Notes under the pieces: model-generated
What the model was told of the DNA's origin: nothing
The model's input: only the letters and a program-made list of their open reading frames with translations
The model's database searches: none
Program-made: the position numbers and the translations under genes
Source of the DNA: Candidatus Accumulibacter cognatus
Lineage (GTDB): Bacteria > Pseudomonadota > Gammaproteobacteria > Burkholderiales > Rhodocyclaceae
Assembly: GCA_013414765.1 (NCBI GenBank)
Contig: CP058708.1
Location: 801,553-865,552, forward strand
Direction: 5' to 3'
Length of the DNA stretch: 64,000 bases
Shown here: positions 5,713-22,389 of the stretch, piece after piece
Layout of the letters: each line of letters starts with the position of its first letter
Numbering within the stretch: the stretch's first letter is position 1

Positions 5713-6087
5713 TCACTCCCAATCCAGAGCACCCTTGGCCCAGGCGTAGATGTAACCCACGACGAGGATGGCAATAAACACCAGCATCTCGATGAAACCG
5801 AACCACCGAACCGAATCTGTTTGTGTGATTTCCTTGAAGATCGTTGCCCAGGGCAGGAGAAAGGCCACTTCAAGGTCAAACAGGATGAAGATGATGGCGA
5901 TCAGGTAATAACGCACATCGAACTTCATGCGCGCATCCTCAAAAGCCTCGAAACCACATTCGTAAGGGGAGAGCTTTTCGCTGTCCGGGCGATGCGGCGC
6001 AACCACCAGACCAGTCACGACGGGCGCAATACCAAAGGCAATGCCAACCAGTATGAAGACAAATACCGGGAAATAACTTTCCAGCAT
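5713..6087 (-). CDS. nuoA: NADH-quinone oxidoreductase subunit A
   Basis: This is a small membrane subunit of complex I with three predicted transmembrane helices: residues about 5-27, about 60-85 after a hydrophilic loop holding [20 protein letters not shown], and about 90-112. It sits at the membrane/peripheral arm junction. The start is the ATG at 6087 (MLESYF); a GTG 12 bp upstream gives a less typical N-terminus. It is the first gene of the nuo operon, 59 bp from the tRNA-Leu gene, so the operon promoter may lie near or upstream of that tRNA. Confidence 0.94.
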
Positions 6088-6145
6088 GATCCGCCCCACA
6101 AGTGCTTCATTTCAGACTACAGCCACCCAATTGAATGGCTTTTCC

Positions 6146-6230
6146 TGGTGCCGACGATGAGACTCGAACTCATACGACCGAAGTCACTACCCCCTCAAGA
6201 TAGCGTGTATACCAATTTCACCACGTCGGC
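6146..6230 (-). tRNA. tRNA-Leu (anticodon GAG)
   Basis: On the minus strand the sequence folds as a class II tRNA. The acceptor stem GCCGACG pairs with CGTCGGC, the anticodon stem CTATC/GGTAG encloses the loop TTGAGGG (anticodon GAG), the long variable arm contains GTGACTTCGGTC, and the T-loop is GTTCGAGTC. The gene encodes its own CCA end (6148-6146). Its position between secG and nuoA is a recurrent arrangement in proteobacteria. Confidence 0.95.
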
Positions 6231-6294
6231 ACGACAATGGCAGCAGGCGAGTTAACTAGGAACCCTTCTCTCTTGCCGCTGCCTTGAAACCAGA

Positions 6295-6666
6295 TTACTT
6301 GGGAATATCCTTGGCTTTCGAATCGGGATTCGCCGGGCTTGTTCCCTGCTCAACACTACCCGCAGGCTGCGCTGAAACAGGGGCAGAGTTTACCGCATCC
6401 TGCATCACACTGCCAGTCGTTTTTGGTTTGCTTGAAGCCAGATAGGTGAGTGACAGGCTGGTCACAAAAAATGCTGTCGCCAGGATAGCCGTAGCGCGAC
6501 TCAGGAAGTTGGCCGAACCAGTGGCGCCGAACAGGCTACCGGAAGCACCGCTGCCAAAAGCCGCGCCCATGTCGGCACCTTTGCCGTGCTGCACCAAGAC
6601 TAGGCCGATGATGCCGATTGCCGCCAAAATGTGCACTACCAGCACCACAGAAAAAAGATAGTCCAT
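6295..6666 (-). CDS. secG: Preprotein translocase subunit SecG
   Basis: This is the auxiliary inner-membrane subunit of the SecYEG translocon. The 123 residues contain two transmembrane helices (about 3-23 and 52-72) flanking the signature loop [20 protein letters not shown] with [12 protein letters not shown], followed by a low-complexity polar tail. The start at 6666 has a GAGGTG ribosome-binding site six bases upstream; the longer frame to 6753 is unsupported. In many relatives tpiA lies immediately upstream of secG. Here that side is occupied by insertion-sequence debris. Confidence 0.94.
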
Positions 6667-8632: not shown

Positions 8633-8685
8633 CTAGCCTTGCCCCCAGGAACGGCTGCGGAAGCAGCCCCCACAGGAGCAAGAGG

Positions 8686-8991
8686 ATGACCAGAAGGACG
8701 AGGCGGAACTTCACCCCCGCATTCAAGGCGCCAGTGGCACTGGCAGCGCTGAAGAGCGACAAGACGCCAGCGGAGCTGGCGCAGCAGTATGACATCCACC
8801 CGAACCAAATCACCGACTGGAAGCGACCGTTGACGGCGCGTGCAGTGCAGGTTTTTGGAGACACCGGCAGTCCCGCGAGCAGTGATCCCGACCTGACGAA
8901 GCAGCCTGCCAAGACCGGCCCGTTGACGCTGGAAAACGATTTTTTAGAACATGCGCTCACCCAGGCGGGCCGGTTGAGCGCAAGACGATGA
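8686..8991 (+). CDS. IS3-family transposase OrfA (possibly decayed)
   Basis: The product is a 101-residue helix-turn-helix protein of the OrfA type, which in IS3-family elements is joined to OrfB by frameshifting to give the active transposase. The N-terminus (RRTRRNFTPAFK, then ELAQQYDIHPNQITDWKR) is clearly IS3 OrfA. The central and C-terminal parts have drifted. A ribosome-binding site GGAGCAAGAGG precedes the ATG. The partner OrfB downstream is broken, so the element is not expected to move by itself. Confidence 0.75.
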   Translation: MTRRTRRNFTPAFKAPVALAALKSDKTPAELAQQYDIHPNQITDWKRPLTARAVQVFGDTGSPASSDPDLTKQPAKTGPLTLENDFLEHALTQAGRLSARR

Positions 8992-9549
8992 TTAACCGCC
9001 ACCCCAAGCTCCCCGTATCGCATCCGTGCCTCCTGCTGGGGCGGGCGCGTTCGACCGCCTACGATACCCCGCGCGCGGTTTCGCCCGAAGACCTGGCGCT
9101 GATGCGCCGGATGGGCGAGTGACCCCTCGAACACCCGCTCGCCGGCGCCCGCATGCTGCGCGATCTGCTGCGCCCCGAAGGCTTCCCGGCCGGGCGCAAG
9201 CCCATCGGCACCCTGATGGCGCGGATGGGGATCGAAGCCCTCTATCGGAAGCCCAACCCCTCTCGTCGGCAGCGGAGGGATGAAATCCCTCCCTCCTGCG
9301 CGATCTCGCGATCGAGCGACCCCATCCGGTGTGGGCAGCCGACATCACCTACCTCCCGATGCGCCGGGGCTTCCTCTCCCTGTTTGCCGTGATCGACGGG
9401 TATTCGCGCCTGGTACTCGCCTGGCGGCTCTCAAACCCTGACGACCGACTTCTGCCTGGACGCGGTACGCAAAACCCTCCACCGCGATGGTTGCCCGGAG
9501 AACTTCAACACCGATCAGGGTTGTCAATTCACCAGTGGCGAATTAACTA
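8988..9549 (+). pseudogene. IS3-family transposase OrfB, N-terminal part, frameshifted
   Basis: The frame opens at the ATG at 8988, overlapping the end of OrfA, and reads MINRHPKLPVSHPCLLLGRA before a stop at 9121 in front of what should continue as EHPLAGARMLRDLL. Further shifts follow: near 9285, after ALYRKPNPS, and after WAADITYLPM and AVIDGYSRLVLAWRLSN near 9430. The last piece, NTDQGCQFTSGEL, ends at the IS630 insertion point and resumes after it at 10690. Several independent frame breaks make this a dead gene. Confidence 0.8.
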
Positions 9550-10689
9550 GTGTCTAATTGCATTATTAGCTAGTAGTAATATGATACCTCCCCATGCTTT
9601 TCTGGTGGGAGAAGGAAATGGGACGTGTGGCGGTAGCACTGTCCTGCACAGCAGAGGTAAAGAGGGAGTTGGAACGAATGTCACGCAGTCGCAGCGGCGA
9701 GGTTCGTTTGGCCGAGCGAGCGAGGATCGTCCTGGGCTGTTTGCAGGGTCTGCAAAACGAGGAGGTCGCCCGCGAAGTCGGGGTACGGCCGAACACCGTG
9801 GGGTTGTGGCGTCGGCGCTTTGCCGAGCAGGGCTTGTCCGGGTTGCGTGATGCGGCTCGGTCGGGCAAGCCGGCGAAGTACGGGAAGGATCTGCGCGACC
9901 GTATCCTGACGCAGCTGGAACTGACTCCTCCGGAGGGGAGGGCGAGTTGGGATGGGGGGTCATTGGCGAAGGTGCTGGCGGTGTCGGACGACGCCGTATG
10001 GCGCGTATTGCGTCGGGAGGGCATCCAACTGCAGCGCCATCGCTCCTGGTGTGTCAGCACGGACCCCGATTTCGCGGCCAAAGCCGCGGATGTCATTGGA
10101 CTGTACCTGAACCCACCGGAAAAGGCGATGGTTCTGAGCGTCGACGAGAAGCCCTCGATCCAGGCTCTGGAGCGCCGACGCGGCTATGTCCAGACCAGTA
10201 GCGGGAAGGTGGTCCAGGGACTCCAGAGCACCTACAAGCGCCATGGCACCGTTAATCTGTTCGCCGCCCTGGAAGTAGCCACCGGCGTCATCCGCGGCAA
10301 GACCACACCAACCCAGAAGCGCGCCGACTTCCAGGCCTTCATGGCGGAGGTTGTCGCTGACGAACCCGCCGACCGTGAAATCCACGTCATCCAGGACAAC
10401 CTCAATACGCACCAGAAGAACGACGAGTGGCTGGCTGCCCACCCCAACGTCACCTTCCACTTCACACCCACCAGCGCCAGTTGGCTTAACCAAGTGGAGA
10501 TCTGGTTCGGCATCTTCCAACGCAAGACGCTGCGAAATGCCAGCTTTTCAAGTGTCGATCAACTCGTTGAGGCCATTCACCAATTCACCACCGCTTACAA
10601 CCAGAACGCCGCTCCCTTCGTCTGGCGAAAGCGCGAGGTCAAAGGCACGCAGTTACGGAATACTATTGTTAACCTATGCAATTAAACAC
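9550..10689 (+). mobile_element. IS630-family insertion sequence nested in the IS3 remnant
   Basis: The ends are GTGTCTAATTGCAT (from 9550) and the complement of GTGTTTAATTGCAT (to 10689), matching in 13 of 14 bases. The element is flanked on both sides by TA within the context CTAG, the target typical of IS630 transposition. Removing the element and one TA restores a continuous reading across the junction (GELT-SLLKAHD) in the host IS3 orfB, which fixes both boundaries and the order of insertion. Confidence 0.9.
9618..10685 (+). CDS. IS630-family transposase
   Basis: This intact 355-residue DDE transposase has an N-terminal winged-helix/homeodomain-like DNA-binding region (about 10-130; EVAREVGVRPNTVGLWRRRF). 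The RNase H-fold catalytic core carries the triad Asp in VLSVDEKP, Asp in VIQDNLNTH and Glu in NQVEIWFG. The start at 9618 has the strong ribosome-binding site GGAGAAGG; the upstream ATG at 9594 lacks one. The stop codon lies inside the right inverted repeat. Confidence 0.93.
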   Translation: MGRVAVALSCTAEVKRELERMSRSRSGEVRLAERARIVLGCLQGLQNEEVAREVGVRPNTVGLWRRRFAEQGLSGLRDAARSGKPAKYGKDLRDRILTQLELTPPEGRASWDGGSLAKVLAVSDDAVWRVLRREGIQLQRHRSWCVSTDPDFAAKAADVIGLYLNPPEKAMVLSVDEKPSIQALERRRGYVQTSSGKVVQGLQSTYKRHGTVNLFAALEVATGVIRGKTTPTQKRADFQAFMAEVVADEPADREIHVIQDNLNTHQKNDEWLAAHPNVTFHFTPTSASWLNQVEIWFGIFQRKTLRNASFSSVDQLVEAIHQFTTAYNQNAAPFVWRKREVKGTQLRNTIVNLCN

Positions 10690-11010
10690 TAGCCTCTTGA
10701 AGGCGCACGACCTCCGGATCAGCATGGACGGCCAGGGGTCCTGGCGGGAAAACAAGCGAAGCGCAGTTTTGCGAGCCGATAGGCGAGAGGGCGAGGCCCG
10801 TCACAACGTCTTTGTCGAGCGCCAGTGGAAAAGCGTCCAGTACGAAGAGGGGTATCTCAAGGCCTACGACCGCGTCGCCAATGCGAAAGCCCATTGGCCA
10901 CGTATTTGCACTTCTACAACGAGCGACGACCCCCTCGCTCCTTCGATGGCAGCACACCGGACGCGACTGACTTCGCGGTACTCGCGGCCGCCAAGCGACC
11001 GGCGGCGTAA
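10690..11010 (+). pseudogene. IS3-family transposase OrfB, C-terminal part
   Basis: This continues the split OrfB: SLLKAHDLRISMDGQGSW, then NVFVERQWKSVQYEEGYLKA, and in a shifted frame LHFYNERRPPRSFDGSTPD up to 11010. It therefore contains the third catalytic region of IS3 transposases. About 54 bases (near 10755-10809) interrupt the normally contiguous DNVFVER region without breaking the frame. A single-base shift near 10893 separates the last part. The gene is non-functional. Confidence 0.8.
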
Positions 11011-11073
11011 GGCATGAGCAAGGGGCTCCGTGGATTTGTGGACGATGCGCTGCCGCGCACCGGGCCGCTTGCC

Positions 11074-11242: not shown

Positions 11243-12377
11243 GGCGTTGGTGTAGTATATTGACATGAGCCCCCCCGGAGTTCGGGGTCTGGCGGCAAGA
11301 AGAGGTGCGAGATGGCGATGCGGGTGAACCCGGAGACGGGCGAGGTGGGGCTGAAGCAGCGGTATCGGGTGACGAACTGGTCGGAGTACGACCGAGCGCT
11401 GGTCAACCGCGGCAATCTGACGATCTGGTTCGACGATGAAAGCCTTCGGGACAAGTGGACGCCGCCGCCGCCGGTAGGGCGTGGCACCCCGGGGCGGTAC
11501 TCGGACGTGGCGATCCAGACCTGCCTGACGATCAAGGGACTGTTTCAGTTGCCGTATCGGGCGACGGAAGGCTTGGTGAGGTCGCTGATGGGCCTGTGCC
11601 ACCTGGATCTGCCGGTGCCCGACCACAGCGACCTGTCGCGACGGGCGGCGGAAATTTCGGTGCAGATTCCGCGGCGGCCGCGCCAGGGGCCGACGCATGG
11701 GGTGGTCGATTCGACCGGGCTGAAGATATTCGGTGAAGGCGAATGGAAGGTGCGCCAGCACGGGGTGGGCAAGCGGCGCACCTGGCGCAAGATCCATTTG
11801 GCCGTAGACGAAACTGCCAAGGACATCATCGGCATTGAAGTGACCACGGCCGAGTGGGGCGACAGCGAGATCCTGCCCGGTCTGCTCGACCAGGTCGAAG
11901 GCGAGATCGCCCAAGTCTCAGCCGATGGCGCCTACGACAGCCACGGCTGCCACGCGGCCATCGCCGAGCGGGGCGCTCGTGCCACCCTTCCCCCTCGGGA
12001 AGGGGCCGTCGCTTGGGGAGACCATCATCCCCGCGATGCGATCCTCCAGGAGATCGAAGCCAAGGGAAGCCGCGGCTGGAAGAACGAGAGCGGCTACCAC
12101 CGGCGCAGCATCGCCGAGAACATGATGTACCGGCTGAAGCAATTGGGTAGCAGCCTGTACTCCCGGACCTTCGAGCGGCAAGTCACTGAAGCTCATGTCC
12201 GAGCCGCGATCCTCAACACCTTTACCTATCTCGGCATGCCGGCATCTGTCCGGGTAGGGCAAATTGCGCCTGCCGCATGAGAAAGGACGGGAAAAGAGGG
12301 AGTGCTTGCCGAAAACCAGGAATATAGCCATATGGGAGGCGACTCTAGGGATTATGCCAATATACTACACCAACGCC
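11243..12377 (+). mobile_element. IS5-family insertion sequence with perfect 20-bp inverted repeats
   Basis: The left end GGCGTTGGTGTAGTATATTG (11243-11262) is exactly complementary to the right end (12358-12377). The 1135-bp element contains one intact transposase gene. I see no convincing target duplication in the flanks. It is the last element of the IS island, and its right end lies 79 bp upstream of the COG3014/MORN gene, so it may influence expression of that gene. Confidence 0.92.
11312..12280 (+). CDS. IS5-family transposase
   Basis: This is an intact 322-residue DDE transposase. The catalytic core includes VVDSTGLKIFGEGEW, the mid-domain WRKIHLAVDE and VSADGAYDS, and the C-terminal YHRRSIAENMMYRLKQLGS, where the glutamate of the DDE triad lies (YREK-like region). 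The ATG at 11312 follows a purine-rich AGAGGTGCGAG. The length fits the IS5 family. Confidence 0.92.
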   Translation: MAMRVNPETGEVGLKQRYRVTNWSEYDRALVNRGNLTIWFDDESLRDKWTPPPPVGRGTPGRYSDVAIQTCLTIKGLFQLPYRATEGLVRSLMGLCHLDLPVPDHSDLSRRAAEISVQIPRRPRQGPTHGVVDSTGLKIFGEGEWKVRQHGVGKRRTWRKIHLAVDETAKDIIGIEVTTAEWGDSEILPGLLDQVEGEIAQVSADGAYDSHGCHAAIAERGARATLPPREGAVAWGDHHPRDAILQEIEAKGSRGWKNESGYHRRSIAENMMYRLKQLGSSLYSRTFERQVTEAHVRAAILNTFTYLGMPASVRVGQIAPAA

Positions 12378-12456: not shown

Positions 12457-14457
12457 ATGAAGCAGATTTCCTATACCTGTGCATTGCTGTTACTAATGCT
12501 TGGACTACCTTCCATCGGCGTCGCGGGCATGTTTCGCCAATACTCCGATGCGCTTAACGAAACCGTCACACTGGTGAAAACAGGCGAACTCAAACAGGCT
12601 GTGGCAAAGATCGAAAACTTCAACGAGGGCAATGACAAAGACATCCTATACTTTTTCGAAAAGGGGGAACTACTGAGTCTCGGCAGCAACTTCATCAGCA
12701 GTCGCGAAACCTGGATGAAAAGCGACGAGATCATTCAGGCGTGGGAAAACGAATTTCGTAGCAATCCATCAAAGATATTTGGTGACATTGGCAGTTTTCT
12801 AATTAGCGACAAGACCCGTCGTTATGATGGGCAGGACTACGAAAAGGTGCTGCTCTCGACGCGCCTGACCATGAATCACATCATGCTCGGTAATTTCGAC
12901 CATGCCCGCATCGAAATGAAGAAGACCTATGAACGTGAAAAACTGATCGAGGCTTTCCGAGAAAAGGAGTACGACGCGCTCAAGGTTGAGTCGAACAAAC
13001 AGGATGCCGGTCAGGCCAGCAATCTTGAGGGTTATCCGATGCAGGAACTCGACACTCCGGAAGTTCGCGAGCTGAAGAACGGTTTTCAGAATGCCTTTGC
13101 ACACTATCTGGCCGGTTATTTCTTTGAGGTCACCGATGAACCCTCTCTGGCCGAGCCAGGTTACCGTAATGCGCTGCAACTGGCACCTGGCAATACCATG
13201 ATTAAGACTGCCCTCAATGAGATTGGCAAACGCGTGCCTGGCCTAGGCGAGACCGACGTGCTATTCGTCTTGGAGACCGGATTTGCGCCGCGCATCGACT
13301 CGTTGAATATTTCGATCCCCATCATGCGCAAGGGAGGAATAGTCATTACCCCACTCTCTTTCCCGCTACTCAAGGTTTCAGAACAAGTGCCAGTACCTTC
13401 CTCGCTAGCAGTTGCCGGGGGTCGATATCCGGTCGAAACGCTAACCAATATCGACACCATGGCACGGCGTCTGCTCAAGGATCAAATGCCGGGAATCATC
13501 TTGCGCACGGTTATCCGGGCGGGACTCAAATCGGTCGTTCAGGAACAAGCCAACAAGGCGCACTGGGTCGCCGGGCTGGTTGCCAATGTCGTATCTGCAA
13601 GTACCGAACAAGCCGACGACCGCAACTGGCGTACCCTGCCAGAACGTATTTCGATCGCTCGTGCCATGCTCCCGCAGGGTCGGCAAGTCATCGAATTCCA
13701 GACCCCAGCTGGTATCTACCGTACTGAAGCAGATGTCTCCGGTCGTTTCACGATTGTGCCGATCCGTATCACTGGGAATGCGGTCTATGTTGGACAACCG
13801 AACCGTGCCAAGGATATTTCCCCTGGATTGCTGCCCGACAAAATGATTCCCCCTGGCCACCTTGTTCCGCCTGCGCCTGACTCCAGTCGATCTTACGTGG
13901 CTGCCGCCTCATCCGTTGCACCCGTTGCACCCGTTGTACCTGTAGCACCTGTAGCACCGGCGATGCAGCCAACCGCGGACCTAGGCAAGCGTGTGCAGGT
14001 CGGCGATACTACCTACATTGGCGACTTTCGCTTTGCCCAACCCAGTGGGCTACCCAGTGGCAAGGGGGTAATCGAGTGGCAGAACGGACACCGCTTTGAA
14101 GGGCAACTCGTGAACGGTGTCAAGCAAGGCCATGGTGTCTTCATCGCACCGGGGAGTTTTCGTTACGAAGGCAATTGGGAGTCCAACAAACAGAACGGCA
14201 AGGGAAAAACAATCTTTGACAACGGGGATGTGTACGAAGGCGAAATACTGGACGGCGAATTCCACGGTCAAGGCAGTTACACGACAAAGGATGGTTACCG
14301 CTACGAAGGTTCCTGGAAAAAAGGCGTCAAAGAAGGACCGGGAAAACTGATTTTCCCCGATGGCGATTTCTGGGAAGGAATCTTCAGCAACGACCAACGG
14401 ACAGCCCAGGGGAAAATGACCTTTGCGCCCAAGCCTGACATTAGAGCAAGGCAGTAA
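12457..14457 (+). CDS. COG3014-like secreted protein with C-terminal MORN repeats
   Basis: The protein has 666 residues. A signal peptide (about 1-23, ending GVAG) precedes a TPR-like helical region (about 25-260) seen in COG3014-type proteins. Then come a conserved beta-rich part (about 265-450), an Ala/Pro/Val linker (about 480-515, repeated VAP units) and about five MORN repeats (about 530-650; units such as YEGNWESNKQNGKGK and YEGSWKKGVKEGPGK). It is a clear paralogue of the lipoprotein at 26830, which lacks MORN repeats and has a lipobox that this one lacks. It faces the CsgG-like operon convergently. MORN repeats often contact membranes or partner proteins; the function here is unknown. 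A GGGGAG site precedes the start. Confidence 0.8.
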   Translation: MKQISYTCALLLLMLGLPSIGVAGMFRQYSDALNETVTLVKTGELKQAVAKIENFNEGNDKDILYFFEKGELLSLGSNFISSRETWMKSDEIIQAWENEFRSNPSKIFGDIGSFLISDKTRRYDGQDYEKVLLSTRLTMNHIMLGNFDHARIEMKKTYEREKLIEAFREKEYDALKVESNKQDAGQASNLEGYPMQELDTPEVRELKNGFQNAFAHYLAGYFFEVTDEPSLAEPGYRNALQLAPGNTMIKTALNEIGKRVPGLGETDVLFVLETGFAPRIDSLNISIPIMRKGGIVITPLSFPLLKVSEQVPVPSSLAVAGGRYPVETLTNIDTMARRLLKDQMPGIILRTVIRAGLKSVVQEQANKAHWVAGLVANVVSASTEQADDRNWRTLPERISIARAMLPQGRQVIEFQTPAGIYRTEADVSGRFTIVPIRITGNAVYVGQPNRAKDISPGLLPDKMIPPGHLVPPAPDSSRSYVAAASSVAPVAPVVPVAPVAPAMQPTADLGKRVQVGDTTYIGDFRFAQPSGLPSGKGVIEWQNGHRFEGQLVNGVKQGHGVFIAPGSFRYEGNWESNKQNGKGKTIFDNGDVYEGEILDGEFHGQGSYTTKDGYRYEGSWKKGVKEGPGKLIFPDGDFWEGIFSNDQRTAQGKMTFAPKPDIRARQ

Positions 14458-14484: not shown

Positions 14485-14520
14485 AAAAAATGGCTGGTCG
14501 GGGATATCCCATCCAGCCAT
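14485..14520 (-). terminator. Rho-independent terminator of the CsgG-like operon
   Basis: On the minus strand ATGGCTGG (14520-14513) pairs with CCAGCCAT (14497-14490), with a further inner palindrome GGGATATCCC, and is followed directly by a run of T (14490-14485). It lies 42 bp beyond the stop of the last repeat-protein gene (14562) and just past the stop of the convergent COG3014/MORN gene. Confidence 0.85.
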
Positions 14521-14561
14521 CATTGGTAACTGGCAGGCCATAAAGGCCATGTGCCAGTGGA

Positions 14562-14903
14562 TTACTTGCCGCCGATAACGCCAGCCTCGTTGGCAGCGGT
14601 GTTGTTTTTGCCCACTGCAACGGCCGTTGCGTTCTTTTGCGATGCCTGGATTTTGGTGTTGCCCTGAATCTGGGTCCCACCCTTGATGGCACCGGTCGTG
14701 TTCTTCGCGGTGTTGCCTTCACCAACAGCAACCGCTGTTACGTTCTCGTTTTTAGCCTTGATGTCGGTATTGCCCTGAATCTGAACACCTTGAGCATTCG
14801 GCGAGGACATGCTGCCCTTTGGGCCAGTCTGGGAAGCTTGACCGAAAGCAGCGGTAGAGATGACAGCCGAAGCCAGAGCGATGATAGCGAATTGAGTACG
14901 CAT
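14562..14903 (-). CDS. Secreted curlin-like repeat protein (copy 1)
   Basis: This is a 113-residue protein with a signal peptide ending near AAFGQA. The mature part consists of two ~37-residue units rich in Asn, Gly, Thr, Ala and Val, each with the pattern QIQGNT, a charged stretch, then TAVAVG and an Asn-rich turn (unit 1 IKAKNENVTAVAVGEGN; unit 2 IQASQKNATAVAVGKNN). Such strand-turn repeats recall CsgA/CsgB curlins without being the canonical SxQxGxxNxA motif. The start at 14903 has a GGAGGAAAC ribosome-binding site. The last 76 residues differ from the neighbouring copy at one position (Thr for Glu). It is the last gene of the operon. The amyloid role is an inference. Confidence 0.7.
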   Translation of the reverse strand: MRTQFAIIALASAVISTAAFGQASQTGPKGSMSSPNAQGVQIQGNTDIKAKNENVTAVAVGEGNTAKNTTGAIKGGTQIQGNTKIQASQKNATAVAVGKNNTAANEAGVIGGK

Positions 14904-14953
14904 ATTTGTTTCCTCCATTATGGAAATGATGAACTATGGGCAGGCGAGTATTC

Positions 14954-15268
14954 TTACTTACCGCCGATGACGCCTGCTTCGTTGGCAGCGGTGTTGTTCT
15001 TGCCCACTGCAACGGCCGTCGCATTCTTCTGCGAGGCCTGAATCTTGGTGTTACCCTGAATTTGGGTTCCACCCTTGATGGCACCGGTAGTATTCTTGGC
15101 TTCATTGCCTTCGCCGACAGCGACCGCCGTCACGTTTTCGTTTTTAGCCTTGATGTCGGTATTGCCCTGGATCTGCACGCCCTGGGGGTTGCTGGAACGC
15201 TGGGTTTGTTGAGCGAAAGCCGGGGAGGCAACGATGGCAGCAGCAATCATCATAGAAATCAGACGCAT
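14954..15268 (-). CDS. Secreted curlin-like repeat protein (copy 2)
   Basis: This is a 104-residue protein with a signal peptide (MRLISMMIAAAIVASPAFAQ) and the same pair of ~37-residue repeats as the gene 50 bp downstream (VQIQGNTDIKAKNENVTAVA and TQIQGNTKIQASQKNATAVA). Only the signal peptides and short linkers differ between the copies, which points to recent duplication or gene conversion. An AAGGAGAC ribosome-binding site precedes the start. It probably encodes an exported structural subunit; curli-like assembly through the CsgG-like protein of the same operon is a hypothesis. Confidence 0.7.
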   Translation of the reverse strand: MRLISMMIAAAIVASPAFAQQTQRSSNPQGVQIQGNTDIKAKNENVTAVAVGEGNEAKNTTGAIKGGTQIQGNTKIQASQKNATAVAVGKNNTAANEAGVIGGK

Positions 15269-15307
15269 GTGAGTCTCCTTGTTCAGTATAAAAGTACGAC
15301 GAAAGAA

Positions 15308-15919
15308 TCAACCAGTTACTACCTTGAATACGACGCGACGATTTTTCGGATCGCGCGCGTCGAGGTTCGGCATCGTTTCGGTCGAGCCCTTGCCGACTGG
15401 CACAAAGCGCTTCCGATCGATTCCGTTTCGGGTGGAGATGAAATTCACCACCGCATTAGCGCGGTCGCGAGACAGCGCCATGTTCTTGTCAAAATTACCA
15501 GCCACGTCGGTGTGTCCTTCGACGATGACACAGCGATCCGGTGACAGCGCCAGGACTTTGGCGATCTGGTTCAAGGTGCCTTCAGAAGCAGCAGAAACCA
15601 TTGCACTACCCGCATTAAACTGGATGGCAAAATCCACTCCCACCGTGCGCACATCAGGAGGTAGCGAGCCGCAATCTCGTGAGCCTGCAGTCGAGGCAGC
15701 AACTTGAGCAGCGGGCTCGGCCGCTGGAGAGGTGGATTGCTGTTGATTGTCAAAAACAATTGCGCGGGTACGCTTCTGCTGTGGCATGCCTGTTTCGGAG
15801 GGCATGCTCATCGCGCGCTCCAGTTCCCTGAGCTTCTCTTCATCCGAGGCAGCCTGGGATAGACCCACGCCGGAGAGCAACATCAAGCCGATCAAAACCC
15901 TGGAAATGTTGTTATTCAT
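15308..15919 (-). CDS. OmpA-family peptidoglycan-binding protein
   Basis: The product has 203 residues: a signal peptide (about 1-23, VGLSQA), a variable Gln/Ser/Ala-rich linker (about 25-85), and a C-terminal OmpA domain (about 95-200). The domain includes FAIQFNAGSAMVS, VEGHTDVAGN with the peptidoglycan-contacting Asp, and LSRDRANAVVNF with the matching Arg, ending DPKNRRVVFKV. It lacks an N-terminal beta-barrel and lipobox, so it is probably a periplasmic cell-wall anchor. Its place between small secreted proteins suggests it ties the exported structure or its machinery to peptidoglycan. Confidence 0.85.
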   Translation of the reverse strand: MNNNISRVLIGLMLLSGVGLSQAASDEEKLRELERAMSMPSETGMPQQKRTRAIVFDNQQQSTSPAAEPAAQVAASTAGSRDCGSLPPDVRTVGVDFAIQFNAGSAMVSAASEGTLNQIAKVLALSPDRCVIVEGHTDVAGNFDKNMALSRDRANAVVNFISTRNGIDRKRFVPVGKGSTETMPNLDARDPKNRRVVFKVVTG

Positions 15920-15926
15920 TGTGATC

Positions 15927-16241
15927 TCACTTGCAAACGTTGATGACTTCTTTGGTTGTTACAACAATGTCGTTTTTGCGACCGCCCCGGTTATCGTTGG
16001 GTTGTGTCGTTCCGACATTGACATTACAGGTGCCTTGCTTCTTGCTGCCGACATTGACGACCTGCTTCTCATCAGTCGGTGTCTTCTGGCCTTTGGCCTG
16101 TTCAGACCAGCGTTTAGCCATCGCACTATTGACTTTTTGATTTCCATGCGCGTCCAGACCCTGAACAGCATAAGCATCGAGCATGCTGAAAGTCATCGCA
16201 GAGGCGATGGCAAGACTCATCAGTAGCTTATTTGCAATCAT
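15927..16241 (-). CDS. Small secreted protein with paired cysteines, unknown
   Basis: The protein has 104 residues with a signal peptide (about 1-24, MLDAYA). The mature part has a basic, Gln/Lys-rich middle and a C-terminal block, CNVNVGTTQPNDNRGGRKND followed by IVVTTKEVINVC, whose two cysteines could form a disulfide. I place the start at the ATG at 16241, where the coding region overlaps the upstream repeat-protein gene by 14 bp, indicating tight coupling. No family is recognised. Confidence 0.6.
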   Translation of the reverse strand: MIANKLLMSLAIASAMTFSMLDAYAVQGLDAHGNQKVNSAMAKRWSEQAKGQKTPTDEKQVVNVGSKKQGTCNVNVGTTQPNDNRGGRKNDIVVTTKEVINVCK

Positions 16242-16539
16242 CACTGACCACTCCTCCAATATTGGTACAAGCTTTTCTGTTTCGCCCAATGGCAACCGTC
16301 GTCACGTTGCCGGCAGCGACATTCACTTTGGTGCTGGTCTTCTGGTCACCCTGAATCACACCAACCCGATTCTTGGCAACGTTGTTGTCTCCAGAGGCAA
16401 CCGCAGTCATGTTTTTTGTGGTTGCATTGATTTCAGTATTGCCCTGAACCTTGGTCCGCTGACTGGTCTGCGCGAAAGATGAACCGGCGAAGATGGTCAA
16501 AGTTGTCAAAGCAATTATGGTCAGGCCAAGCATTTTCAT
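16228..16539 (-). CDS. Secreted repeat protein, divergent curlin-like
   Basis: This 103-residue protein has a signal peptide ending GSSFAQ. The mature sequence has two units of the same type as the twin genes at 14562 and 14954 but strongly diverged: KVQGNTEINATTKNMTAVAS with GDNNVAKNRVGVIQG, then TKVNVAAGNVTTVAIGRN. Two cysteines near the C-terminus (KACTN, DDCK) are not found in the twins. It could be a minor or nucleating subunit, as CsgB is to CsgA; this is inference from operon position and repeat divergence. Confidence 0.6.
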   Translation of the reverse strand: MKMLGLTIIALTTLTIFAGSSFAQTSQRTKVQGNTEINATTKNMTAVASGDNNVAKNRVGVIQGDQKTSTKVNVAAGNVTTVAIGRNRKACTNIGGVVSDDCK

Positions 16540-16553
16540 TTCATGCCTCCCGG

Positions 16554-17444
16554 TTAGCGCAGGGGTAATCGGATGGGCGGACTCCCGCGACGAAATGTTT
16601 CTCGCATCGATTGCAATTCCGCATCTGAAACACCGAGCTTGCGAGCACTGAATGATTTGGGATCCGGCGTGAACATCAGATATGCCTGCATTTCGTTGAT
16701 CAGGAGTTCCTCGTGATTAACCGCATAATTGAAGTTCATGAGAAACCGCTTGAAAAGTTCCCTCTGATATTCCGTCAAGGTTTCGTGCCAGAAACGCTGG
16801 CAGTATTTGGCGTAATGCGGGTTTGTATAATACTCGCCGTGGGCAAGTTCGTGCAACAGAATGGCATAGCGTGCGCCTGGTGACACCATCGGCTCACCCA
16901 CTTTCCGGTCCTGAGTCTGCGGTATGGCAAGCACGACAACGCCCGGTTTCATGGCTTGGTAAAAACCCCGCCAGAAACGCGCCAGACCCTGTTCAATCAG
17001 GAACTCGCGAATCGCAATTTCTTCAGGGTTCAGTTCGATCTTGTCACGTAATGAAAAATTGAAGAACTGCACCAGTTCGGAGATCAGGACGTCATGACCG
17101 AAAGCAAAGTCGGCCTGTGTGCGGCGTGCAGCCTCAACATAGCGAGCCAACTCCTGATTGCCGAGCACCTTTGGATAAGCCTCTGTGGTCTGTTGTTCAG
17201 TAAATTGGGTAATGCGGTTGAAACTGCGGCCCTGATAGGTCAAACCTGGAAAATCGAATATGTAAATGTCGGGATTATCGGCGATCTGCCAGACTGTCAG
17301 CTCTCCACTGCGGGTCTCGAGAACCTGCGTAAAGTCGCCCTGCACGGCGTCCAGCGCCAAAGCCGATTGCAACATGGCCATGAGCACGCTGGCTCCGAGC
17401 AGTTTCCTGATGTATCCGGCAGTGTTGTCAAATCCAGATTTCAC
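16554..17444 (-). CDS. Secreted zinc metalloprotease (HELAH motif)
   Basis: The protein has 296 residues with a GTG start and an N-terminal signal sequence (hydrophobic core about 14-31). The zinc-protease signature HELAH is at 198-202 (AILLHELAHGEYY), giving His198, Glu199 and His202; a third-ligand candidate is Glu251 in NEMQAY. The flanking residues (HYAKYCQRFWHETLT) are conserved-looking but I do not recognise the exact family. It sits between small secreted genes of the CsgG-like operon, so processing of the exported subunits or the cell wall is plausible. The GTG start has only a weak ribosome-binding site. Confidence 0.65.
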   Translation of the reverse strand: MKSGFDNTAGYIRKLLGASVLMAMLQSALALDAVQGDFTQVLETRSGELTVWQIADNPDIYIFDFPGLTYQGRSFNRITQFTEQQTTEAYPKVLGNQELARYVEAARRTQADFAFGHDVLISELVQFFNFSLRDKIELNPEEIAIREFLIEQGLARFWRGFYQAMKPGVVVLAIPQTQDRKVGEPMVSPGARYAILLHELAHGEYYTNPHYAKYCQRFWHETLTEYQRELFKRFLMNFNYAVNHEELLINEMQAYLMFTPDPKSFSARKLGVSDAELQSMRETFRRGSPPIRLPLR

Positions 17445-17573
17445 TTGTCAATTCCATTCGGATCGTTCGAGAAGTTGTCCCGCGCAGTACAAAGCAAAGC
17501 AACTTGGGTATGATTATCGTAGCGTAGTTCTGGTGCGTGTCAGCTATCAGCAACTATGGGTTTATTGGAAAAC

Positions 17574-17936
17574 CTATTCACGGGGGATGAGGCGATATGC
17601 CTGGGCACGTGATATATTGTTACGAACTTCGACCTGCCGCAAGGAAGTCGGCGCACCAATCGAGCCCGATACCCACGGATAAACCAGCAAAGCACCTGTC
17701 CGTGGACGGTCCTGGTTGTAAACACGCCATGCGTTGCTTCTCTGCATGAGATAGCCCGGCTCTGTCTGCGCAAGGGGAACGAAGCGTGACGTTAACCCCC
17801 CAGGAGGTGGCGGCATCACGACATTATAATCGACAGCATTATAATCAACGATAATTACCGCCTGAGCCGAAGATACCAGCAAGCTCATGGTAAAAATGCC
17901 CAATAGGCTATTTTTCATGAATTGCGACATTGCCAT
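17574..17936 (-). CDS. Small secreted protein, unknown
   Basis: The protein has up to 120 residues: a signal peptide (core NSLLGIFTMSLLVSSAQA) and a short mature part with a repeated VDYNAVDYNVV, a PPPPGG turn, and a C-terminal region rich in Arg, Tyr and Asn (RSNAWRVYNQDRPRTG). The start could be 17936, 17930 or 17918; the first overlaps the upstream gene by 29 bp. It resembles no family I can name. It lies within the operon, 129 bp before the metalloprotease gene. Confidence 0.5.
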   Translation of the reverse strand: MAMSQFMKNSLLGIFTMSLLVSSAQAVIIVDYNAVDYNVVMPPPPGGLTSRFVPLAQTEPGYLMQRSNAWRVYNQDRPRTGALLVYPWVSGSIGAPTSLRQVEVRNNISRAQAYRLIPRE

Positions 17937-18219
17937 CTTTTCCCCACTTGATTACATAGGTTTTGCCTGACTTCCTGGAGGTATAGGGTGATTTTCCTTT
18001 TGGGACCTTTTCCCCATCCACAAATACCTCCCCATTAATCACGGCAACACCCTCCATCTGTACATCCGGGTCAATGGTGCCCGCCGTGTTGCTGGCAACC
18101 GAACCACCCTTTCCTGTCTGAACTTTCACGCCAAGCCCGGACACATCAACAGATACTTGCGCCTGTGCAACCATTGCAACACCGAGAATGGCAAGAGAAA
18201 GGAGCGCCCACCATTTCAT
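17908..18219 (-). CDS. Small secreted protein, unknown
   Basis: This 103-residue protein has a signal peptide (MKWWALLSLAILGVAMVAQA). The mature part begins QVSVDVSGLGVKVQTGKGGS and continues with short beta-like strands (VAVINGEVFVDGEKVPKG), ending in a basic domain YTSRKSGKTYVIKWGKDGN. I choose the ATG at 18219 because GGAG lies seven bases upstream; a longer start exists at 18231. No family recognised. Confidence 0.55.
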   Translation of the reverse strand: MKWWALLSLAILGVAMVAQAQVSVDVSGLGVKVQTGKGGSVASNTAGTIDPDVQMEGVAVINGEVFVDGEKVPKGKSPYTSRKSGKTYVIKWGKDGNVAIHEK

Positions 18220-18288
18220 TAATATCTCCATATTTCACATCTATTAATCGTATAACGCATTGGGCAAGTGTTCGGTTGACATGAAAGT

Positions 18289-18873
18289 TCACCTACAACG
18301 AACTTTGACTTGCTGCCCATTGCGAAAGATATGCACGATGCTGCCTGATATGGTGTCGTCCCCAATTCTCCCGGAAACATTGTCGACATCATGGCAAGTC
18401 ACCAGAGGAATACCGTCCCGACCGACGTGGCTCAAATCGATGTCCTGAGCGTTCCCCGTTCCGGTATAGGCACGTGCGCGATTGCGTTGCTCAGTTTGGC
18501 GCGGTTGGCCGCCATCGAATCCGGCAACCCCGGAAGAGGATGGTGGTGGCGTAGGATTGTCACTGCCTGATTGATATGCCCTAGCCTTGTTGCGGTTTTC
18601 GAACGCTTTCTCTTCTATTGGTGCGCCGCCACGAGGAGCAAGAATCCCGACTCCCTCATCCTCCGGGTTTGCCGGTGCTTCGCCCTGATAGCGCACTGCC
18701 TTCTCACGCTGCGATTGCGAAGTCGATTTCGAAGGGGTCTTCTCCGGCCCAATGATCAATTCTGCTAACAGCCAGGCCTTCTCCGCCTGGCTCTCTGACG
18801 CCATGGCCATGGGTACCAGAATTGGGAGGATCAATGCACTGTTCAGGAGAAGTCTGTTGACCAGGGAGGACAT
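18289..18873 (-). CDS. Secreted protein, unknown, second gene of the operon
   Basis: The protein has 194 residues with a signal peptide (about 1-25, VPMAMA). The middle is a disordered-looking region rich in Ser, Pro, Gly, Gln and Arg, with two similar KARAY/RARAY segments (RNKARAYQSGS and RNRARAYTGTG), and a more ordered C-terminus (DGIPLVTCHDVDNVSGRIGD and GSIVHIFRNGQQVKVRCR) with two cysteines. It follows the CsgG-like gene by 14 bp. No family recognised. Confidence 0.55.
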   Translation of the reverse strand: MSSLVNRLLLNSALILPILVPMAMASESQAEKAWLLAELIIGPEKTPSKSTSQSQREKAVRYQGEAPANPEDEGVGILAPRGGAPIEEKAFENRNKARAYQSGSDNPTPPPSSSGVAGFDGGQPRQTEQRNRARAYTGTGNAQDIDLSHVGRDGIPLVTCHDVDNVSGRIGDDTISGSIVHIFRNGQQVKVRCR

Positions 18874-18887
18874 GGCGATCTCGTCGA

Positions 18888-20462
18888 TTAGCGGGTAACC
18901 GTGATGTCGACGTAACTGCTCATGGCAGTCGGGTTACCTTGACGGTACTGGCTCACGACTTCATCCAGCGAGCGAACAGGCAAAGGAGCCAAATCCCGGG
19001 CACCTTTCAGGTTACCCGGGACAACCAGTTCACGGTCAGCACCGATACAGGCAACCCGCTCCTTGCCAGGTTGATCGAAGCGAATCCGGAACCCGCCGCT
19101 GGGAAGCCTGACGGTGCTGCCAGAGCGCAAGGTCGGATTGCCAAAGAACTGGTTGGGAAAAATCCGTGCCACGGAACGATTGATATCTTCGTAGTAGCAA
19201 TATACCGTGCCATCTCCCGTCAAGGATAGCGACATATTCAGGAACTCTCCGACCTTGTAGCTTGGCTTGGAACCTTTGTCGCTGTCGAGATTGACCCGGA
19301 ATGCAGCGGCGGGGACAGCCTGCGGCGGGGGAAGTGCTACCGGCGCAGGCGCAGGCGCAGGCGCAGGAATCGGCCGGGCAGCCGCTGTTTTAGCCGGTGG
19401 CGTGCTGGGCACATAAGCCAGGTTGTTCTGGATGTCATCGAGCAGGCTGGCGTAAAGATCGAAGCTGATTCGCCCATCCGCCACCAGATTGTTCTGTGCC
19501 TGGTATTCAAGGATGGCATCCTTCAGCGTGTCATTCATCTTGCCGTCGATCGGGCCATTGTAACGGTTCATGCTGCCACCCAGCTTGCGCTGAACAAAAG
19601 TGATCCTTTCGTTTTCTTTCAGCGTTTCGTAGGTTTCCAGTGCCTGCTCGCGGATCACCGGATTGGTGATGTCCGCATCCAGGCAACGCCAATAAGGCAC
19701 CTGGGTGAATTGACCAAGGGTTTCGATCAGGCCGAGCTCAAGCAGAGTCCGCGTCGTCGCACCCAGGCCTTCCGAGCGGCTGAAGTCGAGATTGAAAGAG
19801 AGGCCAACCTTACCCAATTTACCTCCCGCTTCACCGGATTTGCCGGTTTTGATAATGACCATCGTATTGGAAGTGCTGGTTTGCGGAAGAATCTTTCGAG
19901 TGGCCGCATCGCCGATACTCATGTCCATGCTGATCAGGTCATAGGAGGCATCGGAAGAGAAACCAAAGTCGAAGAAAGCGGCCGCCAAACCGAAACCACT
20001 GTTCTTGCGAATGGTATTGTCATCCATCTGGGTGATCGATCCCCGAATGTAGTAATCGGGGATTTTCATCATGGACTGGCCCTTGGTGTCGAAAAGTCGT
20101 GCCAAGTCGTCTCCGCCGCCATGAAAGTCGATAAACTCAAAGGCGTTGCTCTTGACCGTCATTTTGGCGATGGCGGTAATCAGCATTTCCTTGGTACCTG
20201 TGCGCACCTTGCCGGTCTCATCCGGGATGCCGGTCGAGGTCACGACGATGCCGTTCTTGCCATAGGCGAGGAACAATTCATCCATGCATCGCAAGGCCTG
20301 GGAAAAATTGGTCACCGTCTTGATGGCCGGGGTCTTCGGGGCGGCAGCGTTGGAAACGGTTGCTGCCGGGTCTTGCGATTTGCCGAGCACGTCCTGCGCA
20401 GAAGCAAGGTTGCAGAACAGCGCCAGTGGAATCATCGTTAAACCGGGGATCAGTTTCGACAT
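18888..20462 (-). CDS. CsgG/HfaB-like outer-membrane secretion protein with PG-binding and DUF4384-like domains
   Basis: The protein has 524 residues, signal peptide about 1-23 (ASAQ, no lipobox). Residues about 45-275 resemble the CsgG/HfaB fold that forms curli or holdfast-anchor secretion channels: DYYIRGSITQMDDN, then a Gly/Phe-rich SGFGLAAAFFDFGFSSDAS and a helix TTRTLLELGLIETLGQF. Then follow a peptidoglycan-binding-1-like domain (about 300-360, NGPIDGKMNDTLKDAILEYQ), a Pro/Ala linker (about 372-395) and a DUF4384-like domain (about 400-500, GTVYCYYEDINRSVARIFPN). The start at 20462 is preceded by AAGAAGG. It heads a ten-gene operon of exported proteins. A small palindrome CGCAAT/ATTGCG lies 34-53 bp upstream of the start. 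Loss of the usual lipid anchor is unusual for CsgG. Confidence 0.65.
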   Translation of the reverse strand: MSKLIPGLTMIPLALFCNLASAQDVLGKSQDPAATVSNAAAPKTPAIKTVTNFSQALRCMDELFLAYGKNGIVVTSTGIPDETGKVRTGTKEMLITAIAKMTVKSNAFEFIDFHGGGDDLARLFDTKGQSMMKIPDYYIRGSITQMDDNTIRKNSGFGLAAAFFDFGFSSDASYDLISMDMSIGDAATRKILPQTSTSNTMVIIKTGKSGEAGGKLGKVGLSFNLDFSRSEGLGATTRTLLELGLIETLGQFTQVPYWRCLDADITNPVIREQALETYETLKENERITFVQRKLGGSMNRYNGPIDGKMNDTLKDAILEYQAQNNLVADGRISFDLYASLLDDIQNNLAYVPSTPPAKTAAARPIPAPAPAPAPVALPPPQAVPAAAFRVNLDSDKGSKPSYKVGEFLNMSLSLTGDGTVYCYYEDINRSVARIFPNQFFGNPTLRSGSTVRLPSGGFRIRFDQPGKERVACIGADRELVVPGNLKGARDLAPLPVRSLDEVVSQYRQGNPTAMSSYVDITVTR

Positions 20463-20706: not shown

Positions 20707-22389
20707 TCAGCGTGTCAGCAGCATCAGCATCAGCAGATTGGCGAAAAGCGATATGCTGGCAATGATTCGCCAGGTGAGCAACGGGTTGCGTAGAGCCAGC
20801 GGAGTCACTGGAGGTCGGTTGAGCGGTCGGGTGGCACCGCGTTCGAGCGCCAGCAGGAATTCTTCAGCGGTTTCGAAGCGCTGCGCGGGATCTTTCGCAA
20901 CCGCCTTGAGCAAAATGTTCTCCAGCCAGCCTGGGATATCCGGACGGTAGCGCGTCGGCGCCAAGGGTTCGCCAAATTTTGGGTGCTGAAAGGGTTCGAC
21001 CTCGCCATAGGGATATTTGCGGGTCAGCAGATGGTAGAGCACGACACCGGCGGCATAGAGGTCATGCGTGGTACTTGCCCTTCCACCCGAAAAGAGTTCC
21101 GGCGCCATGTAGCTCGGTGTGCCAGGATTGCCTCTGTCGATTTCGTCTTCGGACAAACTGATCGCAACGCCGAGATCGAGAATGCGCAGGCGGCCGTCAC
21201 GCCCGAGGTGAATGTTTGCGGGCTTGATGTCACGGTGGGCGACGTCGAGGCGGTGCAGCGCCGAGAGGCCCTTTATTAAACGGATGCCATGCAGGACGGC
21301 ATCCGCAACGGTAAAATGCATGTCGGCATCAAGCATCCGCTGCAGCGTCCCACCCTCGTGCCAAGTCTGCAGGTAATACAGGCAACTGCGTCGTTCGGCC
21401 GGGAGCAGTTGCGGGAAGAAAGGCGAGACGATACGCCGGGCACGCCATTCTTCCATGATCAATGCTCGAATTTCGTCGGCATCATCGGCGAGTTCTGGAC
21501 GCAGTGTCTTGAGCACCAGAGGTTGGCCGGACAACAGGTCGGTGACACGGTAAAGCAGGGTTGCTCGCGAGTCGTGCAGCACTTCGTCGATGCGCAGACC
21601 ATCGAAGGTCTGCCCAGGCTTGAATCGGGGCGGCAAGGGCAGGCGCGACGTGCCTTCGAGCGAGTCACGCAGGTTTTCCGCAGGCAGTTCGGCGACGCGC
21701 AAGACCACGGCGCTGGCATTGTCCTGGCTGCCCGACGCCAGCGCCAGGCTGGTTAGCGATGCGGCAGCCTGCTGCGCGTCGGGATGTGCGATCAGCACAC
21801 CACAGATGCGCTGCTTGTCGAGTACGCCCCAGACGCCGTCGGAGCAAAGCAAGAAACAGTCTCCCTCCTGCAGTTCGCCGTCAACAAAATCGAGATGGAA
21901 GTGACGGTCGAGGCCAACTGCCCTTGACAGAACGTTCCTGAGTTCGGGGTGCTCCCATACGTGGTCGGTTGTCAAGCGCCGGCAGACGCCATCGCGCAGC
22001 AGATAGAGGCGCGAGTCGCCGACATGTGCGCACACGTAACGTCGGCCGCGCAGCACCAGCGTGGTGAGTGTCGTCGCCATACCGGCGAGTTCGGGTTGCC
22101 GGCCGGCTTCGGCCATGACCCAACGGTTGAGCGGAACGACGACCTTTTCCAGCGCATGCGGCACGCTCCAGGTCTCGGGTGTCGCGTAATAGTCGGAGAG
22201 CAGGCTACGTACGGTGTACTCGGCGGCCTCGCGCCCGCCCTTGTGACCGCCGATGCCGTCGGCAACGGCCGCGATCAGGCCCTTGTTCTCAAGATCTGCG
22301 CCGTACGGGGTGACCATGCCGCAGAAGTCCTCATTACGTTCGCGAGGACCGGTCAGCGAGGAGTGACCAACGTCGACAGTCAGCGGCAT
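20707..22389 (-). CDS. PP2C-type phosphatase / Ser-Thr protein kinase fusion
   Basis: This 560-residue bifunctional regulator has a PP2C phosphatase domain (about 5-240) with RNEDF, ADGIGGHKGG, HVGDSRLYLL, LLCSDGVWG and SQDNASAVVL. A Hanks-type kinase follows (about 265-520) with the Lys in LVLKTL, HRDIKPANIHL and PSYMAPE. The magnesium-binding motif is DLG, not DFG, and a canonical glycine-rich loop is not evident. A C-terminal transmembrane helix (about 535-558, ASISLFANLLMLML) anchors it. It follows the nitrate transporter gene by about 75 bp. Fusions of this type are known beside nitrate assimilation genes in beta-proteobacteria. A role in controlling transport or nitrate use is inferred from position. 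Confidence 0.9.
   Translation of the reverse strand: MPLTVDVGHSSLTGPRERNEDFCGMVTPYGADLENKGLIAAVADGIGGHKGGREAAEYTVRSLLSDYYATPETWSVPHALEKVVVPLNRWVMAEAGRQPELAGMATTLTTLVLRGRRYVCAHVGDSRLYLLRDGVCRRLTTDHVWEHPELRNVLSRAVGLDRHFHLDFVDGELQEGDCFLLCSDGVWGVLDKQRICGVLIAHPDAQQAAASLTSLALASGSQDNASAVVLRVAELPAENLRDSLEGTSRLPLPPRFKPGQTFDGLRIDEVLHDSRATLLYRVTDLLSGQPLVLKTLRPELADDADEIRALIMEEWRARRIVSPFFPQLLPAERRSCLYYLQTWHEGGTLQRMLDADMHFTVADAVLHGIRLIKGLSALHRLDVAHRDIKPANIHLGRDGRLRILDLGVAISLSEDEIDRGNPGTPSYMAPELFSGGRASTTHDLYAAGVVLYHLLTRKYPYGEVEPFQHPKFGEPLAPTRYRPDIPGWLENILLKAVAKDPAQRFETAEEFLLALERGATRPLNRPPVTPLALRNPLLTWRIIASISLFANLLMLMLLTR

Follow-up and report, generated by a model that had tools for sequence, protein, structure and literature searches.

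Does an operon that joins a CsgG-like protein to small secreted repeat proteins, and that has no recognisable CsgE or CsgF, encode an exporter of its own? The question is raised by the minus strand of a 64,000-nucleotide stretch of Candidatus Accumulibacter cognatus (contig CP058708.1, positions 801,553 to 865,552; the whole stretch is called the window here), in which an initial annotation had proposed a curli-like export operon built around a CsgG/HfaB-like protein. We find that the operon is real. It probably encodes an outer-membrane exporter of the CsgG/HfaB type whose dedicated cargo is a group of small beta-repeat proteins, together with new partners and subunits. Its features, from the upstream end and in window coordinates, are as follows; the names curA1, curA2 and curA3 were coined in this analysis.

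18888..20462, minus strand: predicted CsgG/HfaB-like outer-membrane exporter subunit, 524 amino acids (Pfam, AlphaFold2 model, Foldseek, hhalign)
19704..20324, minus strand: CsgG-like core of the exporter, residues 47-253 (order of secondary structure in the AlphaFold2 model, and alignment to CsgG)
19449..19601, minus strand: PG_binding_1 domain of the exporter, residues 288-338 (Pfam; 54 of 61 aligned exporter rows match at E ≤ 0.01)
19038..19262, minus strand: DUF4384 domain of the exporter, residues 401-475 (Pfam; 61 of 61 rows match)
18289..18873, minus strand: secreted 194-amino-acid accessory protein, with NRxxARxY-type repeats and a cysteine-containing C-terminus (by eye)
17908..18231, minus strand: secreted 107-amino-acid accessory protein
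17574..17936, minus strand: secreted 120-amino-acid accessory protein, the rarest of the set
16554..17444, minus strand: secreted HExxH metalloprotease-like protein (HELAH), 296 amino acids, GTG start (conservation of the motif)
16228..16539, minus strand: curA3, 103 amino acids, a diverged version of the repeat with a C-terminal cysteine pair
15927..16241, minus strand: secreted 104-amino-acid accessory protein with C-terminal KEVINVCK, overlapping curA3 by 14 base pairs
15308..15919, minus strand: OmpA-C-type peptidoglycan anchor, 203 amino acids (Pfam OmpA, E 1.4e-15)
14954..15268, minus strand: curA2, 104 amino acids, two 37-residue copies identical at 21 of 37 positions
14562..14903, minus strand: curA1, 113 amino acids, two 37-residue copies identical at 22 of 37 positions
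14485..14558, minus strand: operon terminator, two hairpins downstream of curA1, the second running into six T

Ten minus-strand open reading frames in the window's list span 20462-14562, forming the single operon that the initial annotation had described, with the contents and coordinates given there. The exporter is followed by the 194-, 107- and 120-amino-acid proteins, the HExxH protein, curA3, the 104-amino-acid protein, the OmpA-type protein, curA2 and curA1, separated by 14, 57, -29, 129, 14, -14, 7, 39 and 50 base pairs. All ten products start with a signal-like N-terminal stretch as judged by eye; these include four accessory and three repeat proteins, in agreement with the earlier count of at least six small proteins with signal peptides. 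The strong terminator seen at the operon's end also held, with a stability of -38.1 kcal/mol (z -4.54) that was equalled by 0 of 200 shuffles. A simple terminator scan did not report these hairpins, probably because its rule accepts plain stems only, with loops of 3-8. Two promoter-like sites were found in the promoter scan, fewer than in shuffles, and no promoter was established. Since the set is conserved across genomes, as described below, a chance grouping of these genes is very unlikely.

The core of the exporter is predicted to adopt a CsgG-like fold. Pfam recognised two domains above cut-off, DUF4384 (E 1.1e-12) and PG_binding_1 (E 1.7e-5). Its CsgG family gave only a sub-threshold match to the window exporter (E 0.13, 12.0 bits at a cut-off of 20.8) and nothing in a search of the whole genome; over the 61 exporter rows, the same family matched 16 at E ≤ 0.01, at best with 2.2e-5. 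An AlphaFold2 model built from the 61 aligned rows had a mean predicted local distance difference test score (pLDDT) of 75.0 and a predicted template modelling score (pTM) of 0.50, with a good core and poor hairpin regions. A Foldseek search with this model returned chains of CsgG at all of ranks 1-19 (best E 3.9e-7, probability 1.00); HpaA came next, and FlgT, GNA1162 and PelC ranked further down (these last three at E 8.5e-4 to 3.9e-3). Comparison of the exporter profile with CsgG of E. coli K-12 by hhalign gave a probability of 89.9 and an E value of 1.7e-6 over residues 62-204. The earlier description of this gene as a CsgG-like protein with added peptidoglycan-binding and DUF4384-like domains is borne out by these results, and the structure prediction proposed at that time as a check returned a CsgG-like fold, not an unrelated one.

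The presumed membrane hairpin regions of the exporter lie at about residues 148-172 and 206-222. The stretch that holds both CsgG hairpin regions aligns to the exporter with few small gaps in hhalign as well as in MAFFT, and hydrophobic and polar residues alternate along it by eye. A shortened form of the constriction loop, which in CsgG carries Tyr51, Asn55 and Phe56, was considered and not adopted as a finding: hhalign places a 12-residue gap in the exporter at this loop, whereas the MAFFT gap falls elsewhere. The nearest named relative of the exporter, at 97% identity, belongs to Candidatus Accumulibacter vicinus.

The strongest evidence that these genes act as a unit comes from their co-occurrence in a sample of 150 genomes (own genome included) that was searched whole, with protease and curA profiles built from the operon's members. 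Some exporter match at E ≤ 0.001 was present in 25 genomes, in 15 of which it was full-length at 49% identity or above; the others were diverged or partial. The protease was found at the same threshold in exactly these 15 genomes and nowhere else, and curA in 14 of them and in none of the remaining genomes. In the one genome of the 15 that lacks curA (G006), the contig breaks off within the protease gene. Fifteen genomes can be picked from 150 in about 1.6e20 ways, a figure to be read with the relatedness of the genomes, which are not independent. Within the genus, 9 of 28 genomes, own included, carry the exporter at 49% identity or above. The co-occurrence of exporter, protease and curA supports the idea of a self-contained set put forward in the initial annotation.

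Gene order is conserved beyond this genome, as had been asked of the locus: exporter, protease, curA and OmpA genes are collinear on one strand in 29 of 80 loci. These loci are the best 80 of 81 collected with one conserved-peptide pattern, and the per-gene counts are best hits above 25 bits in the fetched stretch, obtained with iterated home-made profiles that can drift. By this measure the exporter was found in 79 loci, an OmpA-profile protein in 67, the 104-amino-acid protein in 45, curA in 38, the 194-amino-acid protein in 36, the protease in 35, the 107-amino-acid protein in 34 and the 120-amino-acid protein in 23. Departures from the order take several forms: curA genes lie on the opposite strand in five loci (L093, L095, L096, L098 and L119), operon genes are rearranged in L097 and L099, contig ends cut L070, L078 and L088, the assemblies with L076 and L082 contain a complete operon too, these two loci being additional copies of the exporter, and in L090 the exporter is accompanied by the 194-amino-acid protein alone. 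The collinear loci include L065, from Giesbergeria anulus ATCC 35958, and L095 is the locus of Rhodocyclus purpureus DSM 168. Lysobacterales loci hold the 104-amino-acid protein, the exporter and OmpA. The combination of exporter, protease, curA and OmpA is found in, among other hosts, Rhodocyclales, Giesbergeria, Rhodoferax, Gallionella, Terasakiella and a Desulfobulbaceae metagenome-assembled genome, and in a thin sample of the phylum the exporter was present at E ≤ 1e-20 in 19 of 398 genomes. The exporter tree departs from taxonomy in places; the operon has therefore likely been transferred horizontally, although errors in the binning of metagenome-assembled genomes may account for some of the mismatch.

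If the CsgG-like protein is an exporter, the curA proteins are the best candidates for what it exports. The motif G-x-x-N-x-A occurs two or more times in 47 of 51 curA rows, and the AlphaFold2 model of curA2 is all-beta, with two matching four-strand copies and a pLDDT of about 89-95 over the repeat body. The formation of fibres by curA is plausible on the basis of the structure model and of gene association. Related repeats recur beside some other exporters, which makes curA the likely cargo. In one minimal paralogous cluster (L052:6012-11054), a CsgG-like paralogue stands between a small two-repeat protein (6012-6323) and a 1010-amino-acid multi-repeat protein (8022-11054) that matches the curA profile at E 1.3e-7, and at E 1.9e-6 in hhalign. 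Alphaproteobacterial loci (L113, L115, L125, L127 and L128) encode three- to four-repeat proteins near the exporter, of the type N-x-A-A-G-x-x-N-x-A-x-Q, whose family profile matches curA at E 8.2e-7; the seven proteins of this family match neither the CsgA and CsgB profiles nor Pfam, and one of the seven rows has the strict curli repeat. More generally, a simple repeat motif was hit two or more times in 80 of 3942 open reading frames near exporters, compared to 11 of 3942 shuffled and 6 of 2186 further off, counts that take in overlapping frames as well as the operon's own curA genes.

Repeats are also found in other settings. At L053:6445-9892, a CsgG-like paralogue with a peptidoglycan-binding domain is followed by a 703-amino-acid protein in which numerous motifs look alike by eye, although it does not match the curA profile (E 0.08). 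Another genome of the genus encodes, next to a diverged exporter, a 518-amino-acid repeat protein (L050:11779-13335) that starts like a signal peptide and in which Q residues recur; it aligns with curA in the signal peptide only and has no Pfam match. Additional curA genes occur elsewhere in several genomes that carry the operon, and in two such genomes FecR-domain proteins encoded away from it (L202:3446-4240 and L203:3323-4258) end in a single curA repeat. The curA repeat may be a portable module for export or docking.

The remaining partners are a protease, a wall anchor and small secreted proteins. Residues H198, E199 and H202 of the HExxH motif are invariant across 32 aligned protease rows, as are N250, E251 and Q253-Y255 (NExQAY), and E251 may by its conservation be the third zinc ligand. 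The window protease matched no Pfam family at E ≤ 1 and its search of solved structures gave no useful match; over the 32 rows, a single one touched Peptidase_M90 (E 0.049). The HELAH motif and the OmpA-type domain noted in the initial annotation are both in place. Short NRxxARxY-type motifs are common by eye to the 194- and 120-amino-acid proteins and their relatives.

From the gene set, the domains, the predicted fold and the co-occurrence we infer export and the assembly of a fibre in the following way. All ten products would reach the periplasm by means of their apparent signal peptides. There the CsgG-like protein would form a ring-shaped pore in the outer membrane, which may be tied to the cell wall by its own PG_binding_1 domain and by the OmpA-type partner. 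The curA1, curA2 and curA3 proteins would be the likely cargo that crosses this pore, and once outside the cell they may stack into a beta-solenoid fibre or coat that serves adhesion or a matrix. Among the least certain steps are those assigned to the helpers: the four small proteins may do the work of CsgE and CsgF in guiding, gating and nucleation, and the HELAH metalloprotease may trim or clear subunits.

Several results weigh against this model. For the exporter, the Foldseek alignments to CsgG have root-mean-square deviations of 8.4-14.9 Å and TM-scores by target length of 0.43-0.56, CsgG came after peptidoglycan-binding matches, at no better than E 0.15, in a sequence-profile search of solved structures, and the membrane hairpins are low-confidence parts of a model whose overall pTM is 0.50. 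The window exporter has no lipobox by eye, whereas CsgG is a lipoprotein. For the cargo, the E. coli CsgA fibril ranks first among structural neighbours of curA2 at a non-significant level (E 0.85, probability 0.04), with FapC ranked third and fifth and likewise non-significant. The strict curli repeat (Q-x-G-x-x-N within X6QXGX2NX10) is present in 0 of 51 curA rows, whereas E. coli CsgA has four, and only signal-peptide stretches of curA align with profiles of E. coli CsgA and CsgB. Finally, in 42 of the 80 loci no curA relative lies within the stretch that was fetched, a few of these loci being truncated by contig ends. They include all 22 Azospirillum loci, where the exporter is present and mostly accompanied by an OmpA gene. 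The exporter can therefore be present where this cargo is absent.

No homology of curA to curlins was detected by the motif and the profile comparison above, nor by Pfam, where Curlin_rpt is not among the families reaching E ≤ 0.1 over the 51 rows, nor by a sequence search of solved structures, which gave one irrelevant match (E 0.39). The initial annotation had counted three proteins with strand-turn repeats like curlins; the three repeat proteins are present, and the likeness to curlins did not survive as a detectable relationship. The curA proteins are curlin-like in design.

The missing lipobox is shared with much of one branch of the exporter family. A rough regular expression found a lipobox in the exporters of 48 of 79 loci, and 24 of 35 protease-bearing loci lacked one by the same expression. 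On the 61-row exporter tree, where the labels of L079, L081, L117 and L128 were reset by eye against the expression and the window's label was also set by eye, the lipoprotein label switches just twice. The window exporter falls in a 30-row clade (support 100/99) that is labelled as lacking the lipobox except for two Giesbergeria rows. The lipid anchor was likely lost in this clade, and the wall-binding domains may substitute for it.

An anchor of the holdfast type is the chief competing reading, since HfaB is the curated exporter model that comes nearest to the window protein. On this reading the CsgG-like protein would place small repeat proteins on the surface as a base by which exopolysaccharide is held to the cell, in the manner of HfaABD, without free fibres. 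The NCBIfam HfaB model matches 45 of the 61 exporter rows at E ≤ 0.01 (best 1.1e-7), more often than any other NCBIfam exporter model, and with the NCBIfam CsgG model the window protein reached no better than E 0.11; the wall-anchoring domains would also suit an anchor. In the portion of the holdfast literature consulted, HfaA resembles CsgA and HfaB resembles CsgG, and HfaB acts with a small CsgA-like surface protein (PMC6707917). However, the window protein scores 18.3 bits against HfaB, far under the cut-off of 300, and its partners are different, comprising a protease, an OmpA-type protein, four small proteins and three repeat proteins (HfaD and polysaccharide genes around the loci were not searched for). 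We consider a holdfast-type anchor rather unlikely at present.

Still less probable is a periplasmic ring of the FlgT, PelC or GNA1162 kind that would stabilise the envelope by joining the outer membrane to the peptidoglycan; curA would then polymerise in the periplasm, and nothing would be exported. Two proteins with wall-binding domains, the absence of a lipobox from the window clade and the fold shared with FlgT, GNA1162 and PelC are all consistent with such a ring. CsgG, however, was better than these three by at least two orders of magnitude in E value; the aligned stretch with both hairpin regions and its alternating residues also count against such a ring, and the 703- and 1010-amino-acid multi-repeat proteins beside paralogues would suggest surface structures.

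Very improbable is a divergent form of ordinary curli whose CsgA, CsgE and CsgF have changed past recognition: the CsgG fold, the G-x-x-N-x-A core of curA that echoes the curlin G-x-x-N and the lack of csgE and csgF in roughly half the curli-bearing genera of Alphaproteobacteria, as stated in the portion of the curli survey consulted (PMC3521004), would fit it, but it is opposed by the strict repeat missing from every curA row, by the presence of a protease and an OmpA partner and of additional DUF4384 and wall-binding domains, and by curlin repeats at E ≤ 0.001 in only 1 of the 150 genomes, one that also has a strong CsgG match.

The preferred reading, an exporter dedicated to small beta-repeat proteins, sets the operon beside several known systems. 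Like curli, it combines a CsgG-like fold, in which both hairpin regions can be aligned, with small secreted proteins of imperfect repeats encoded beside the exporter. Unlike curli, its exporter adds peptidoglycan-binding and DUF4384 domains and lacks a lipobox, its partners include OmpA-type and metalloprotease-like proteins, its curA repeats lack Q-x-G-x-x-N, and neither CsgE nor CsgF is recognised. The statement of the initial annotation that CsgE and CsgF are not recognisable was upheld genome-wide (one contig, 5.17 Mb, with an E. coli control detected in each search): the Pfam CsgE and curlin-repeat models found nothing at E ≤ 1, and the CsgF model gave one sub-cut-off match (E 0.238) away from the operon. 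The Fap amyloid of Pseudomonas is likewise built from repeat proteins that are secreted by a dedicated exporter, in this case FapF, which is another kind of barrel; the likeness to the operon lies in the secreted repeat proteins and in the non-significant appearance of FapC among the neighbours of curA2 (FapF was not searched for). Another known system, the CsgG-GNA1162-COG3014 lipoprotein clusters, shares the fold family with the exporter, GNA1162 being in the Foldseek list, and differs in that no GNA1162 family appeared in Pfam scans of the operon's proteins.

Other Pfam CsgG-family proteins are present in 35 of the 150 genomes, at least four of which (G007, G030, G054 and G055) also match this exporter family; membership of the CsgG family alone therefore says little. 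In the part of the curli survey consulted, CsgG is placed in a larger family, the curlin repeat consensus is given as X6QXGX2NX10 and two curli systems are reported for the Betaproteobacteria, both in Burkholderiales (PMC3521004).

Further CsgG-like genes were observed in passing. The window's own genome has a second one at about 2.05 Mb (L055:8881-9987), a 368-amino-acid protein with an apparent lipobox that seems to lack the DUF4384 part (it was not scanned) and adjoins a 1672-amino-acid protein; a similar-looking pair is found in L054. In Azospirillum and Skermanella (L118:13373-19345 and L126:14144-18114), the surroundings of the exporter also encode a second protein that weakly matches the exporter profile and one that looks caspase-like by eye.

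The genes that flank the operon were rejected as parts of it. Directly upstream, 20707-22389 encodes a fused PP2C phosphatase and protein kinase (Pfam), with a relative in 2 of the 80 loci. The convergent gene at 12457-14457 has a relative in 3 of them; its product has four MORN repeats (Pfam) and a signal-like start, and we presume it to be COG3014-like. Near the operon's end, at 11312-12280, lies a transposase-like gene, presumably of the IS5 type. A role in defence was also set aside: in a PADLOC scan the OmpA domain alone was picked up, by MotB-like ZorB models, which we read as an effect of the shared domain.

As far as we searched, the operon is a conserved variant of CsgG-type secretion that is undescribed in open-access full texts: among the matches listed there (most subscription papers lie outside this scope), none describes it. 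More tentatively, and with rather less confidence than in the exporter itself, it could be a secretion route distinct from both curli and the holdfast, that is, a wall-tethered CsgG-fold channel with its own beta-repeat cargo, no CsgE or CsgF and control by a metalloprotease. Such a route would be shared by Rhodocyclales, Rhodospirillales and Lysobacterales among others, would supply fibres to the matrix of Accumulibacter granules, and would use a portable repeat that was added to FecR-domain proteins and expanded to 700-1000 residues.

Accumulibacter, which forms granules, is one of the main organisms that remove phosphate in wastewater plants. In the portions consulted of two studies of its matrix, curli come only from flanking bacteria, as a Flavobacterium protein in one (PMC12019908) and as Kaistella transcripts in the other (PMC12016536). 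The former study also reports, at 10%, a group of secreted Accumulibacter proteins that was left unassigned (PMC12019908). Published curli models have been applied to metagenomes for CsgE, CsgF and CsgH, according to the curli survey (PMC3521004). The operon escapes the Pfam models for CsgE, CsgF and the curlin repeat, and it would probably also escape the published ones, which were not run here. The operon now offers a named gene set with which fibres of the Accumulibacter matrix can be tested. If the proposed function is true, it would show that the CsgG fold has on more than one occasion been combined with another cargo and another set of helpers.

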